A stretch of DNA of 47,964 nucleotides, taken from positions 1-47,964 of the forward strand of contig ONOE01000010.1 of assembly GCA_900319365.1 (NCBI GenBank), read 5' to 3'. Shown here in pieces: positions 43,723 to 47,855 of this stretch (positions within the stretch are counted from its first letter, which is position 1; the number at the start of each line of letters is the position of its first letter). This DNA comes from an uncultured bacterium (GTDB lineage Bacteria; Cyanobacteriota; Vampirovibrionia; Gastranaerophilales; Gastranaerophilaceae). A program made the position numbers and the translations under genes. The notes beneath the pieces are model-generated. The model did not search any database, was not told the DNA's origin, and worked only from the letters and a program-made list of their open reading frames with translations.

Positions 43723-43751
43723 TTCGCAAGTTTTGATTTTCTGTGTATAAT
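43723..43751 (+). promoter_or_regulatory. Promoter of methyltransferase 2, leaderless configuration
   Basis: TTCGCA (43723-43728), 17 bases, TATAAT (43746-43751), then six bases to the ATG at 43758 and no ribosome binding site. Confidence 0.55.
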
Positions 43752-43757
43752 AACGGT

Positions 43758-45053
43758 ATGGGTATGACTACGGATTGCAAACATAAAACTGATAAGAAAA
43801 ATGTTCTTTCTCTTTTTAGCGGTTGCGGAGGTATGGATTTAGGTTTTGAGGGAGATTTTAATGTTCCTGTTTCTTGTGTAAATGAAAAAATCCACCCTGA
43901 CTGGATAAAAGAACGAAACGGACAATTTGTAAAGTTACAACCGACAAATTTTAATATAGTTTTTGCAAATGATATTATGGATATTGCTAAAACGGCTTAG
44001 ACATCTTATTTTAAAAAATTCGGATATAAAAATATCTTTCATTTGGAAAGCATTGTTGATTTGGTAAAAGCATATAAGAACGGAAAATATAAATTTCCTC
44101 AAAATGTCGATATTGTTACAGGCGGGTTCCCTTGTCAAGATTTCAGCGTGGCAGGGAAAAGAAAGGGCTTTAATTCAGAAAGAAGTCATAACGGGAAAAA
44201 GGATTATGATGTTCCGACTACTGAAACAAGAGGAATGTTGTATTTGTGGATGAAAGAGGTAATAGAAATTACCAAGCCTAAAGCATTTATTGCCGAAAAT
44301 GTCAAAGGTCTTGTATCTTTCGGTGATGTAAAACAAATAATTGAAAATGACTATAGAAATATTGATAAGGGTTATTTGGTTGTTCCGGCACGTGTATTAT
44401 TTGCAAGGGATTATTGGGTGCCGCAAAAAAGGGAACGTGTTATTTTTATCGGTTTTAACAAGAAATATTTAAAAAGTGATGCCTTATCTGCGCTCAGCCA
44501 AAGCGTAATTTCCAAAAAATATGACCCGTATCCCGTTAAAACACATTATGATGTGTCTGATAAATCAATGCAATTAAGTGTATTACAAGATACTTCAAAG
44601 CTCAAGCCGTATGTTACTACTTCGGAAGTTATAAGAGATTTAAATGAGCCGCAAGATGAAACAAAAGATTTGGCTCAGATGAGCTATTCAAAGGCTAAAT
44701 ATTGCCCACATTCTCAGGGACAAACCGAAATTAATTTAAAAGGTCTTGCCCCGACCATTCGTGCCGAGCACCATGGAAATATTGAATATAGAAGATTATC
44801 TCGAATGCATGGAGGAAAGCATACAAATGAGTTAAGCCAAGGACTTGAAGAAAGGCGGCTTACGGTAAGAGAATGCGCACGTTTCCAAACATTCCCCGAT
44901 GATTATTTATTTGTACAGGCTGCCGAAAAAACAGGACGATATAAATTAAGTGCAAGCAGCGCATATAAGCTGATTGGTAATGCAGTTCCTCCATTATTGG
45001 CTTATAATATAGCCAAACGACTTGAAGAATTGTGGGACAAGCTTTTTGTATAA
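43758..45053 (+). pseudogene. DNA (cytosine-5) methyltransferase with in-frame TAG, system 2
   Basis: A 432-codon frame, including the stop, with one internal TAG at 43998-44000 (codon 81). Before it: VLSLFSGCGGMDLGF, motif I. After it, in the same frame: TGGFPCQDFSVAGKRKGF (motif IV, Cys126), AENVKGLVSF (VI), PQKRERVIFIGF (VIII), LTVRECARFQTFPDDY and LIGNAVPPLLAYNIA (IX, X). All motifs are otherwise intact. Loss of the first 80 residues removes SAM-binding motif I, so the gene is probably dead unless the stop is suppressed or the halves reassemble, as in naturally split enzymes such as M.AquI. No ribosome binding site precedes the second part. Confidence 0.85.
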
Positions 45054-45056
45054 ATT

Positions 45057-45551
45057 TTATTTCCCTTGTTTATGTTTAAATTGCAGGTATCTTTCGCATT
45101 GAGCCGCATTGTCATACCCGAGCATTGTCCCCAGAATAAAGTCCTGTTCAGGCGACAGTTTACTTAAATCTTTATCAAATGTTTTTACAACTTCAATACA
45201 TTGTTTCTTGCCAAAATACACATTTATAAGGTGTTTATTTTTATGTTCCCCTATAAAATAATCAATCTTTTCTTCGTTTAAGCGATTTTTAATGGTATCA
45301 AGATATTTGGATTTTTCGGTTGTTAAAATAAGATTTCTTATCCCTTTTTTAAATTCATATATATGGTGATTGAATACTCTTAAATCCGAAATCTGCTCAA
45401 GCTGCGCTCTTGTTAGTCTTGGTTTTGAGCTAAACGATACCGTATCTGTTTGAAGTTCGTTTAATGAGGGTTTTATTCGCATGGCTTCAGGTGCTTTTGC
45501 AGGAGTGTTACCATTGTAATGTTTAAAATTGTTAATTGCGTGAATAAGCAA
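45057..45551 (-). CDS. DUF2023 family protein with lineage-type N-terminus
   Basis: A 164-residue protein. The C-terminal 110 residues match the DUF2023 pattern: NHHIYEFKKGIRNLIL, KIDYFIGEHKNKHLINVYFG, CIEVV, and SPEQDFILGTMLGYDNAAQCERYL. No function is known. The first 60 residues are low-complexity and resemble the AAA ATPase start: MLIHAINNF here, MRISAIQSY there, followed by TVSFSS here, AVNFTG there. The start is taken as TTG at 45551, preceded by AAGGGGGT, exactly the arrangement used by the AAA gene. The frame stays open 17 more codons upstream without a ribosome binding site. Its end is three bases from the convergent methyltransferase. Confidence 0.72.
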   Translation of the reverse strand: MLIHAINNFKHYNGNTPAKAPEAMRIKPSLNELQTDTVSFSSKPRLTRAQLEQISDLRVFNHHIYEFKKGIRNLILTTEKSKYLDTIKNRLNEEKIDYFIGEHKNKHLINVYFGKKQCIEVVKTFDKDLSKLSPEQDFILGTMLGYDNAAQCERYLQFKHKQGK

Positions 45552-45679
45552 ATCATACCCCCTTACGCCTTTATATAAGACCTTTTTCAAAAATATTACC
45601 ATAAAGGTGCAAATTTTATCAATTTTTTATTAAAGAATATTTCATATTTGCCGTCAGAAATATTGAAAGGTTGATTACC

Positions 45680-46510
45680 ATGCAAAACGATATTCCTATA
45701 AGCAGTTTAAAAGGTATTGATAAAACAATCGCTACAATGTGTGATAAAAATGGCGACGGCAAATTGCAAAGTATGCTTGGCGAAGTAAGCATATTTAACA
45801 AGGTTAAAAGTACCGTAAAAGGCGATACCTTTCAATTTGAGGGTAAAGTTTATAACAAAGACGGCACTATAAATTATATAATGAAACCGACAAATGAATC
45901 CTTTTTTACTATTCAAGCCAATTCGGATAATCAGTCTCAAGCAACAGGAGATAAAACATCTAAAACTAATACCGATAAAAGTCAAAAATTACCTGATTTT
46001 AAGCAGGAAAAACTGCCGCCCATAACAAGTAAACCTGTCAGTACAAGGGTTGCAAAACCTGTTATAAGCAGACCTGTACCGATGAAATTATCATCTGATG
46101 TGCGCACAAATTATAATTGGTCGGTTGAAGCTTTTGAGGGTGTAATTGATAAAATGACACCAAAATCAAGTGTATTGCGAGGTAGGGCAAAAGATTTTAT
46201 TGATGCCGCAAAAGCAAACGGTGTAGATCCGAGATTTTTACTCGGCATTGCGATGTTCGAATCGGGCGGTGGAACTTCCGTTCGTGCAAAAGATAAACAT
46301 GATGTCGGCGGGTTGCTCGGGCGTAAATTTACATCAGTATCTCAAAGTATTCAGGCTATAGCAAAAACGATTAGTACAAATTACGGCAAAGGTCATAAAT
46401 CTGCCGATTCTATCGCATTTCCTTATACCCGCAGCAAGGCTTCAGCGCCTTTGTGGAAAAGAAAAGTTGTAGAATTTGCAAATCTTGCGACAAAATATTA
46501 TAAAGCCTAG
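45680..46510 (+). CDS. Glucosaminidase/lysozyme-like protein with an EF-hand-like loop
   Basis: A 276-residue protein. The N-terminal region has a calcium-loop pattern DKNGDGKL (22-29). A Ser/Pro/Lys-rich linker (about 90-140) follows. The C-terminal domain FIDAAKANGVDPRFLLGIAM then FESGGGTS, DVGGLLGRKF and a Tyr/His-rich end resembles glucosaminidase (GH73-like) muramidase domains, with the Glu in MFESGGG as the candidate catalytic acid. It may trim peptidoglycan. No signal peptide is visible, so it may be exported by another route or act on lysis. AAAGG precedes the ATG. Confidence 0.7.
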   Translation: MQNDIPISSLKGIDKTIATMCDKNGDGKLQSMLGEVSIFNKVKSTVKGDTFQFEGKVYNKDGTINYIMKPTNESFFTIQANSDNQSQATGDKTSKTNTDKSQKLPDFKQEKLPPITSKPVSTRVAKPVISRPVPMKLSSDVRTNYNWSVEAFEGVIDKMTPKSSVLRGRAKDFIDAAKANGVDPRFLLGIAMFESGGGTSVRAKDKHDVGGLLGRKFTSVSQSIQAIAKTISTNYGKGHKSADSIAFPYTRSKASAPLWKRKVVEFANLATKYYKA

Positions 46511-46606: not shown

Positions 46607-47305
46607 ATGAAAAAGTCGTTTTTGACATTAATTTTTGCGGGATTTGTTTGCTTTTTTGCGTGTGGAACGCTATTTGCCGAGCAATCGACGGCTGATGCTT
46701 CAATTCAAAATCGCATACAAAAAGTCGGTACAAGAATTTTAAAGAGCAACAGAATAACAAATACCGTTACTTTTGTTTATGACCCGAGTGAAAAGTCCGC
46801 AAAGTTATCTTCAACAAAGATGCTTGTTTCAAGGAAAATCACGGTTTATTCGGGGGCATATAAAAATTTCGGTACGGATGAAGAACTGGCAGCGTTTCTT
46901 GCACGAAACATTGCACTTGTTGTCCGATCTTATGACGGGGTGTTTTTGGGGCGTTTAAGAACATTGCAAATTAAGGCAGCTCCGAAAAAATATCAGATTG
47001 TAGCTGACAAAATAGCAGCTGACTATATGGTAAAAGCAGGTTATGACCCTGTAGCGCTAATTGTTCTTATTCAAAAAGTCGATCCGCAGAAAAAATATTC
47101 TGCAATCTCTTCTAAAAACTCAACTTCAAAAAGACTTGCCGTGCTTTATGAATATATATTTTCAAAATATCCTTACTATCTTTTGAATAATAAATATTAT
47201 GAAAATACTTATTATCAGCAATTTTTGACAGAATCTGAGGCAAACAGAAAATTGCTTGAACAAAAACTCAAATCTCATTCAACCGAGGAGCTTGATTATG
47301 AATAA
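46607..47305 (+). CDS. Exported M48-like protein lacking the HExxH zinc motif
   Basis: A 232-residue protein with a signal peptide (MKKSFLTLIFAGFVCFFACG, cleaved near LFA). The body follows the M48 peptidase layout: NTVTFVYDP, KITVYSGAYKNFGTDEELAAFLARNIALVV, later VADKIAADYMVKAGYDPVAL. In active M48 enzymes the ELA-x-V/F-L-x segment continues HExxH; here it is ARNIAL, and the later E-x-x-x-D keeps only the Asp. It is therefore probably a pseudo-protease with a scaffolding or binding role in the periplasm. The in-frame ATG at 46589 has its ribosome binding site too close, so I start at 46607. It overlaps the next gene by eight bases. Confidence 0.75.
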   Translation: MKKSFLTLIFAGFVCFFACGTLFAEQSTADASIQNRIQKVGTRILKSNRITNTVTFVYDPSEKSAKLSSTKMLVSRKITVYSGAYKNFGTDEELAAFLARNIALVVRSYDGVFLGRLRTLQIKAAPKKYQIVADKIAADYMVKAGYDPVALIVLIQKVDPQKKYSAISSKNSTSKRLAVLYEYIFSKYPYYLLNNKYYENTYYQQFLTESEANRKLLEQKLKSHSTEELDYE

Positions 47306-47855
47306 AATTATAATAGCATTATTGGCTATATTTACGATGGCACTTCCTGCGTGTGCGGTTAATGAAGATTTTATCGTAGAAGAATTTTTGAAAGGCAAAA
47401 ATATTCAAAAGCCTCTTGAAAATATTAACGGCAGTTTAAATGTATCCAATGCTGTCCCTATCTATATGACGATTTCTACACCCGTAAAATCGGAACAGGA
47501 TTTGTATGAGGGACAGATTATAAAATTTGTGGTATCTCAAGATGCAAAATACAACGGTAAAATGATAGCTAAACAAGGAACCGTCGTAAAATCAAGAGTT
47601 GAAACGGTTATTGATAACGGAATGAATGGTATTCCCGCAAGTGTTGTACTGGGAGATTTTATGATTCCCGGAATAAGCCCGAATAAATTAACTTTTTATT
47701 ATGAAAAATACGGACATGATTTGAGTTTGCTTGTTTATCCGCTTAAATGGGTCTTAACACCTTTATGGCCGACAGGCTCATTGACAAACTTTATTAAAGG
47801 CGGTCATGCAAAAATCGGTGCAAATACAAAAGTAACCATATATTATTACCCGTAG
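47298..47855 (+). CDS. Exported unknown protein, partner of the M48-like gene
   Basis: A 185-residue protein with a signal peptide (MNKIIIALLAIFTMALPACA). LPAC could be a lipobox, or signal peptidase I may cut after ACA. The mature part is beta-rich with YEGQIIKFVVSQDAKYNGKM and a KQGTVVKSRVETV strand-turn-strand, resembling the SH3-like or OB-like 'transfer' domains of envelope proteins, but I cannot name a family. Its ATG overlaps the end of the M48-like gene, and GAGGAG serves as ribosome binding site, so both are made together. It probably acts in the periplasm or at the outer membrane. Confidence 0.7.
   Translation: MNKIIIALLAIFTMALPACAVNEDFIVEEFLKGKNIQKPLENINGSLNVSNAVPIYMTISTPVKSEQDLYEGQIIKFVVSQDAKYNGKMIAKQGTVVKSRVETVIDNGMNGIPASVVLGDFMIPGISPNKLTFYYEKYGHDLSLLVYPLKWVLTPLWPTGSLTNFIKGGHAKIGANTKVTIYYYP

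Follow-up and report, generated by a model that had tools for sequence, protein, structure and literature searches.

A predicted metal-free M48 protein and a VirB10/ComB10-like partner encoded as a conserved gene pair in Gastranaerophilaceae

Introduction

What can an M48-type protein do once its zinc site has gone, and what does it do beside the exported protein whose gene overlaps its own? The hallmarks of M48 proteins are an HExxH motif, a Glu ligand and the active-site plug motif HPx4R, and the zinc of BepA is bound by H136, H140, E201 and H246 (excerpts of PMC7950410). BepA (YfgC), a periplasmic M48 metalloprotease of E. coli with a role in outer-membrane assembly, either promotes or degrades LptD, has a chaperone-like activity beside proteolysis, and is held in check as a protease by its plug His (excerpts of PMC8423444). 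The wider question is what makes an M48 protein of this kind degrade an outer-membrane client in one case and help it in another.

The window, by which we mean the whole stretch of DNA that was analysed (47,964 nucleotides), is one entire contig (G000:C14) from a bacterial genome of 1.95 Mb that is 99.89% complete. A sequence-only reading had proposed that a catalytically dead M48-like protein and an exported partner are encoded near its right end, as a pair acting in the envelope and perhaps in outer-membrane quality control.

Results

Organisation of the locus

As read from the open reading frames, gene 1 starts at ATG 46607 and the stop codon of gene 2 ends at 47855, and the gene pair proposed for 46607-47855 is found there, complete with an overlap of eight bases. 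The gene 2 frame opens earlier, at TTG 47256; ATG 47298 is its likely start, and the 8-base overlap follows from taking it as such. The features of the pair are as follows.

46607..47305, + strand: gene 1, predicted exported M48-fold pseudoprotease, 232 aa (open reading frame, Pfam and profile matches, AlphaFold2 model)
46607..46678, + strand: signal-peptide-like N-terminus of gene 1, running to LFA with E as the next residue (sequence, by eye)
46904..46918, + strand: RNIAL (R100-N101-I102-A103-L104, in the context ARNIAL) at the HExxH place, with R100 at the first zinc His
46994..46996, + strand: third zinc-ligand place, Gln130 in the window protein and Glu in 90/94 clade members
47114..47134, + strand: K170-N171-x4-R176 where M48 proteins have the active-site plug HPx4R (motif from excerpts of PMC7950410)
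47147..47248, + strand: C-terminal helical extension of gene 1, YEYI...YPYYL...YYQQF...R (alignment rows)
47298..47305, + strand: 8-base overlap of genes 1 and 2, ATGAATAA (sequence)
47298..47855, + strand: gene 2, predicted exported VirB10/ComB10 C-terminal-domain-like protein, 185 aa (model, Foldseek, VIA, profiles)
47298..47357, + strand: signal-peptide-like N-terminus of gene 2, running to ACA with V as the next residue (sequence, by eye)
47712..47804, + strand: hydrophobic hairpin of gene 2, GHDLSLLVYPLKWVLTPLWPTGSLTNFIKGG, residues 139-169, roughly at the place of the VirB10 antenna (model, hydropathy)

The window genome has two matches to Omp85, which reveals an outer membrane. Gene 1 has 324 relatives, and the best 80 of these, which we refer to as the named loci, are labelled mostly Candidatus Gastranaerophilales, uncultured bacterium or Melainabacteria/cyanobacteria, with a single Fusobacterium sp. 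CAG:439 label; it is these relatives that place the host.

Just 5' of the pair lies a gene for a protein with a C-terminal Glucosaminidase domain (45671-46510, + strand; PF01832, E 2.6e-7), a neighbour not prominent among the families that recur in the 80 loci. Further to the left are a DUF2023 protein (45057-45602, - strand; E 1.6e-37) and two same-frame open reading frames split by a stop (43743-44000 and 44043-45053, + strand), which contain SLFSGCGG... and GGFPCQDFS... and which we take to be one split DNA cytosine-methyltransferase-like gene (43743-45053). Two other settings for the pair were considered and rejected. For a defence system, PADLOC gave no match to gene 1 and one to gene 2 at E=0.02 only; for a phage origin, PHROGs yielded nothing for gene 2 and, for gene 1, two entries without a known function, at E 2.6e-4 and 0.025.

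Gene 1 retains a predicted M48 fold

A single-sequence Pfam search matches Peptidase_M48 to the window protein at E=0.04 with 14.2 bits, below the 20.3 cut-off, and PF01435 is matched by 18 of 21 relatives at E<=0.1, the best at 2.1e-17. When a profile built from these relatives is compared with the PDB, its best match is 3c37, a single-domain M48 peptidase of G. sulfurreducens of similar size (E 2.7e-17), and BepA is matched at 4.6e-7. Structural alignment of the AlphaFold2 model (pLDDT 84.2) places BepA first (Z 12.8; 139 residues, rmsd 3.0) and 3c37 second (Z 11.4), and the row after these has Z 7.3. Structure-alignment Z values below about 13, such as these, may mean little for helical models, and Foldseek E-values are only 0.12-0.13, so that the sequence profile bears much of the case for an M48 fold. 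With profile and model in agreement, the M48 scaffold noticed in the sequence appears to be preserved, and the absence of a predicted M48 fold can be ruled out. Pfam gave no TPR match at E<=1 anywhere in the 232 aa. Structure alignments took in gene 1 from 48 of the 80 loci and gene 2 from 47, in each case with the window protein, and some gene 1 rows were trimmed at the N-terminus.

In the alignment, the four zinc-binding positions of BepA correspond to other residues in the window protein: H136 to R100, H140 to L104, E201 to Q130 and H246 to K170. The place of the catalytic Glu is held by N101 and that of the plug Pro by N171, while the plug Arg is retained as R176, such that HPx4R reads KNx4R; where 3c37 has HEINH, gene 1 has RNIAL. 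Judged by this alignment, the window protein is without any of the BepA zinc ligands. The earlier remark that HExxH had become RNIAL-like is therefore accurate, and the change extends to all four zinc positions.

Loss of the zinc site is shared by a well-supported clade

We assembled an R-type set of 94 distinct proteins from the genome relatives and the 80 named loci, with two broken or truncated copies (L096, L078) excluded from the tree and the residue counts. The first zinc His is replaced by Arg in 93 of these, the last His of HExxH is present in none, and the plug Pro has become Asn in all 94 (window Asn171; Pro in 0/94), with the plug Arg (window Arg176) likewise retained in 94/94. At the third ligand Glu is found in 90 proteins and Gln in four; the plug His survives in 30/94, the window protein not being among them. 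The residue at the second motif position is free to vary and may be E, G, D, K, Q, R or N, and the HExxH Glu is kept in 43/94. The lone exception at the first zinc place is L018 (G024), which has His there (HEIST), encoded by CAT as compared with AGA in a near relative; its last His and plug Pro are still absent.

The branch leading to this clade has support of 100/99, and among the relatives its members come from six genera within a single family. The tree took in 17 of the 80 named loci and carries a long-branch warning that includes the window row, whose branch length is 0.94. In the 60 pairs with the lowest dS, which mix the clades, dN/dS is 0.03-0.22, with dS near saturation in wider pairs. 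Because dN/dS is low and several places have been refilled by other fixed residues, the site does not appear to have merely decayed. A loss that is recent and confined to the window species, which orthologues with an intact HExxH would have suggested, is ruled out, as the loss is common to the supported 94-protein clade; relatives with an intact motif and the partner do exist (10/10), but they are distant and the loss is clade-wide.

The zinc site is inactivated several times beside the same kind of partner

A second clade (HSH-type; support 100/100) has the catalytic Glu changed to Ser, giving HSxxH, in 14/14 proteins, and in all 14 the Glu ligand has become Asp with both His retained. Partner-bearing proteins of a third type (HEH-type) have a complete canonical site in 10/10, and further motifs beside the partner are REISY (G068), SIELAR and SHEIAQ (two copies in G050) and AHELAQ (G039). 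As the distant HEH-type pairs keep a complete site, the pair predates the inactivation. The tree gives five changes between a complete and an incomplete site, of which the starred branches force at least four, a count that takes in a partnerless group having its own losses. No genome among the relatives has both an R-type and an HSH-type protein (25 R-type versus 14 HSH-type genomes, the 25 including G024 with its His and a truncated copy in G014). We consider a single inactivation for the two types unlikely, since the Glu lost in the HSH-type is kept in 43/94 R-type proteins and both His lost in the R-type are kept in the HSH-type, although the branching of the two is weakly supported and L018 is an exception at the first His. 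As the parts of the motif that the two types retain complement each other, the simplest history has both descend from an ancestor with an intact site. On the sequences, then, the zinc site is inactivated several times beside the same kind of partner.

The window genome has one PF01435 match at E<=0.01, another M48 protein that reads NELGH (G000:C17:106219-106854, L094), and no M48 protein with an intact HExxH was found in this 99.89% complete genome by that search. The partnerless paralogue group to which it belongs is also broken, as NELGH (L094), SHELGG (L100, G046:C25) and SQELGR (L093, G057:C1), and by its motifs this is another inactivation.

Two variant arrangements were seen. At L088 (G039:C5) a divergent pair has its gene order reversed, with the partner 5' of the M48 gene that reads AHELAQ. 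At L082, L083 and L079 (G055, G053 and G051) an intact M48 gene precedes a tandem pair of VirB10-like genes or a single gene that seems to have two domains (by eye).

Gene 1 and gene 2 form a conserved unit

The partner lies directly 3' of gene 1 in 80/80 named loci and the overlap is exactly 8 bases in 77 of them when gene 2 is started at the in-frame ATG closest to the stop of gene 1, and the gene 1 frame is open in all 80. The sequence-only reading of a tightly coupled pair is thus extended to a conserved one among the best 80 of 324 relatives, although these were selected for their resemblance to the window gene and say little on the other 244. HSH-type pairs have a 1-base gap in 14/14 rows and the intact pairs vary. 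When open reading frames of at least 110 aa around the 80 loci are compared, only the partner recurs (clustered in 79/80), the next family being present at 17/80, which argues for a unit of two genes and against a wider operon. Among the 98 relatives, a gene 1 match is found in 69 genomes (paralogues included) and a gene 2 match in 56. No gene 2 match was found in eight genomes of the same genus (G005, G008, G011, G015, G017, G031, G042 and G043), of which three are less than 90% complete and five (G008, G011, G015, G031 and G043) are 94-99% complete; the pair is not universal.

Sequence features of the two proteins vary together. A YQNF-type C-terminal motif is present in 130/133 M48 rows with the partner and in 0/16 without it, rows not being deduplicated; two of the 16 are pieces of broken, partner-bearing copies, which leaves 0/14. 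The partners of R-type rows carry GMNG in 104/105 and the hairpin motif KWxLT in 103/105, and the row whose partner has neither (G068) falls outside the main clade. Both motifs are absent in the partners of HEH-type (10) and HSH-type (14) rows, such that the gene 2 hairpin differs where the gene 1 site differs. On the tree, the YQNF/partner and hairpin/site associations are mostly single events and are suggestive only.

Gene 2 resembles the VirB10/ComB10 C-terminal domain

The AlphaFold2 model of gene 2 (pLDDT 84.7, pTM 0.65) is beta-rich. A Foldseek search with it returned type IV secretion core-complex chains in all of its first 11 rows (CagY, VirB10, TraF, TrwE and others), with a best E of 6.5e-3, a probability of up to 0.99 and none at E<=0.001. 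With VIA, the top 11 entries are all of this kind (Z 5.2-7.5), and type IV secretion complexes make up 14 of the top 15 rows (Z 5.0-7.5); one unrelated row has Z 5.2 and the others are at or below 3.4. Since Z values below 8 are weak alone, the fold assignment needs a profile link as well. When profiles are compared, gene 2 is linked to the TrbI-like proteins of related genomes at prob 95.8 (E 7.8e-9, 81 columns) and with a narrower profile at prob 83.2, compared with 2.8 for a gene 1 profile as control; the TrbI-like proteins in turn match structures of ComB10 (4e-8), CagY (2.1e-4) and VirB10 (0.0012). Pfam TrbI (PF03743) is not matched directly by any of 21 gene 2 members at E<=0.1, Pfam and NCBIfam give no direct name for gene 2 beyond scattered sub-threshold matches, and the only solved structure matched by its sequence, HisF (E 0.0068), was taken as a chance match.

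A VirB10/ComB10 C-terminal-domain-like fold is thus the likely identity of gene 2 as modelled. The proposal of an exported beta-rich partner agrees with the model and with the N-terminus, a hydrophobic segment with an AxA site recognised by eye only, which resembles a signal peptide. That the partner is "unknown" is not borne out, given the Foldseek, VIA and profile results; of the proposed envelope pair, the dead M48 scaffold and the conserved coupling stand, and the partner of unknown fold does not. The hairpin consists of short helices (143-152 and 162-165) in a partly low-confidence region of the model, with a best 19-mer hydropathy of 0.88. With a hairpin this short and mildly hydrophobic, Z values below 8 and no Foldseek match at E<=0.001, the formation of an outer-membrane pore by gene 2 is doubtful.

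Among ten genomes searched, none has VirB9 (PF03524) and none has VirB4-N (PF03135) over the cut-off, one weak match being seen in G034 (E 0.004); the control Caulobacter matches both families. TrbI is matched at E<=1 in 84/98 relatives and over the cut-off in 5/98, and the former tally is lax, as the same search matches 5/14 control genomes, a monoderm and an archaeon among them. At E<=0.001 the gene 2 profile has a match in 44/60 genomes of the class, with all matches below 1e-50 falling in the family of the window genome.

TrbI/VirB10-CTD-like exported proteins at L191, L195, L197 and L198 adjoin a TonB-like gene (by Pfam at L191, by eye at the others), three of these loci also having a third exported protein, and they are perhaps a second solitary VirB10-like unit. 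At L194:1077-2402 (G067) a frame scored at 1.1e-8 by the TrbI search contains three S-layer homology stretches; for the whole protein SLH is the sole Pfam match at E<=0.1, and its TrbI part is unsure.

Discussion

Comparison with known systems

Gene 1 is like BepA in its predicted M48 fold and export, in the alignment of the HExxH, third-ligand and plug-arginine positions, and in a link to outer-membrane proteins; it is unlike BepA in that the zinc ligands are gone, there is no Pfam TPR match, and it has a C-terminal extension of its own and an operon partner. Nor is the edge-strand motif of BepA seen. A crude pattern for it, NA[FYGTV], is found in 0/14 HSH-type, 4/106 R-type and 15/21 HEH-type rows (8/10 HEH-type rows with the partner), and AlphaFold places a low-confidence helix at this part of gene 1. 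A plain reuse of the BepA edge strand therefore cannot account for partner binding, the pattern being absent from the HSH-type rows and rare in the R-type rows and a helix being modelled there, and the C-terminal extension would be the better candidate for a contact. The YQNF/partner association, counted here in favour of binding, is in large part the property of one clade on the tree.

Gene 2 is like the C-terminal domain of VirB10, ComB10 and CagY (TrbI, PF03743) in its predicted fold and in its profile link through TrbI-like proteins. It is unlike VirB10 in being a stand-alone exported protein of 185 aa with a short hairpin, in genomes of which the ten searched have no VirB9 and no VirB4-N over the cut-off. 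In secretion systems VirB10, VirB7 and VirB9 work together in a ring of 14-fold symmetry (excerpts of PMC6536674), and two VirB10 antenna helices form an outer-membrane pore (excerpts of PMC6536674 and PMC11845990). Gene 2 shares its fold family with TrbI-like proteins of Cyanobacteria and Vampirovibrionia that are untied to a known secretion system, and four TrbI-like proteins have been placed in the cyanobacterial ancestor (excerpts of PMC3141437). The TrbI-like proteins fetched from related genomes carry glycine-rich hydrophobic stretches and several adjoin a TonB-like gene; no M48 gene was seen beside them in 12 loci fetched with short flanks and inspected by eye. Among the matches listed in our literature search (titles and the starts of abstracts, with few subscription journals covered), none reports a pair of an M48 pseudoprotease and a VirB10-like protein.

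A proposed role for the pair

The reading that we prefer, and whose chances we regard as about even, is that gene 1 encodes a metal-free M48 pseudoprotease whose dedicated task in the periplasm is to escort or scaffold one VirB10-like envelope protein that stands alone. The two genes would make one envelope unit, with co-translation favoured by the 8-base overlap. The gene 2 product, a solitary VirB10/ComB10-CTD-like beta protein, would probably reside at the inner face of the outer membrane, and the gene 1 product would be an M48 fold turned metal-free and non-proteolytic. A conserved polar set (the Arg, the Glu or Gln of the third ligand, the Asn in place of the plug Pro, and the plug Arg) may lock the active-site plug shut. 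The gene 1 product would then bind the gene 2 product in the periplasm, as a dedicated escort, assembly factor or scaffold, docking probably through its family-specific C-terminal YQNF extension. The sequences show the loss of the site, the conservation, the selection and the coupling of the genes, and the folds are predicted, whereas we infer the physical binding of the two products, the salt-bridge lock, the outer-membrane site and the escort role.

Outer-membrane quality control, as first suggested, is a guess. The zinc ligands being absent, proteolytic quality control by the window protein is very unlikely, and the more likely function is that of an escort or scaffold without proteolysis. 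By analogy, the dead proteins would look like permanent versions of BepA in its checked state. Loss of catalysis alone does not give a working chaperone, since in protease-dead BepA(E137Q) the chaperone-like activity is weakened (excerpts of PMC8423444) and the mutant is dominant negative (excerpts of PMC7950410). A broader proposal is of a non-secretion envelope machine in Gastranaerophilales, in which VirB10-type rings standing alone in the outer membrane would each be accompanied by an M48 pseudoprotease made by co-translation. The latter would act as a locked, closed-plug BepA-like chaperone with an Arg-Glu salt bridge in place of zinc, and the conversion would have occurred several times beside the same partner; taken as a whole, this is distinctly unlikely.

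Alternative explanations

The main rival, possible although on the unlikely side, is that the pseudoprotease stays in place as a structural part of an oligomeric VirB10-like ring or channel, in a role like that of VirB9 or VirB7, and is no transient escort. The one-to-one pairing and the overlap would suit such a subunit, as would the ring that VirB10 forms with VirB7 and VirB9 (excerpts of PMC6536674), VirB9 not having been found in the ten genomes. However, the gene 2 hairpin is short compared with the two-helix antenna of VirB10, and excerpts of PMC7950410 give the M48 proteins of E. coli a role in quality control and do not present them as structural subunits.

Control of an active M48 paralogue, with the pseudoprotease as inhibitor, decoy or substrate adaptor, fits genomes such as G051 and G053, where an R-type pair coexists with an intact M48 protein. 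It is very improbable, as the sole PF01435 matches at E<=0.01 in the window genome and in G046 read NELGH and SHELGG, and for the window genome this contradicts it unless an M48 protein escaped the search. More doubtful still is a persisting enzymatic activity, with another metal or with a new site made of Arg100, Glu/Gln130, Asn171 and Arg176: a conserved polar cluster does stand in for the zinc site, but the window protein has no metal-ligand set left and many different residues occur at the second motif position. That gene 1 is a decaying gene carried along by a useful neighbour, as the long branch of the window protein (0.94), the loss of its third ligand as well, an internal stop in a second G003 copy and the split of the G014 copy into two matches might suggest, is hardly credible against a dN/dS well below 1, new residues fixed at the former zinc site and a frame open in 80/80 named loci (the best 80 of 324).

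We return to the preferred reading, of a metal-free escort or scaffold paired with a solitary VirB10-like protein, for what it would mean. A conserved unknown protein of gut Melainabacteria gains a likely fold, and the pair points to VirB10-type domains at work in a setting in which the search of ten genomes yielded no type IV secretion genes. The complete site, HSxxH and RxxxX form a natural comparison series beside the same partner, one that could separate the two functions of M48 proteins.
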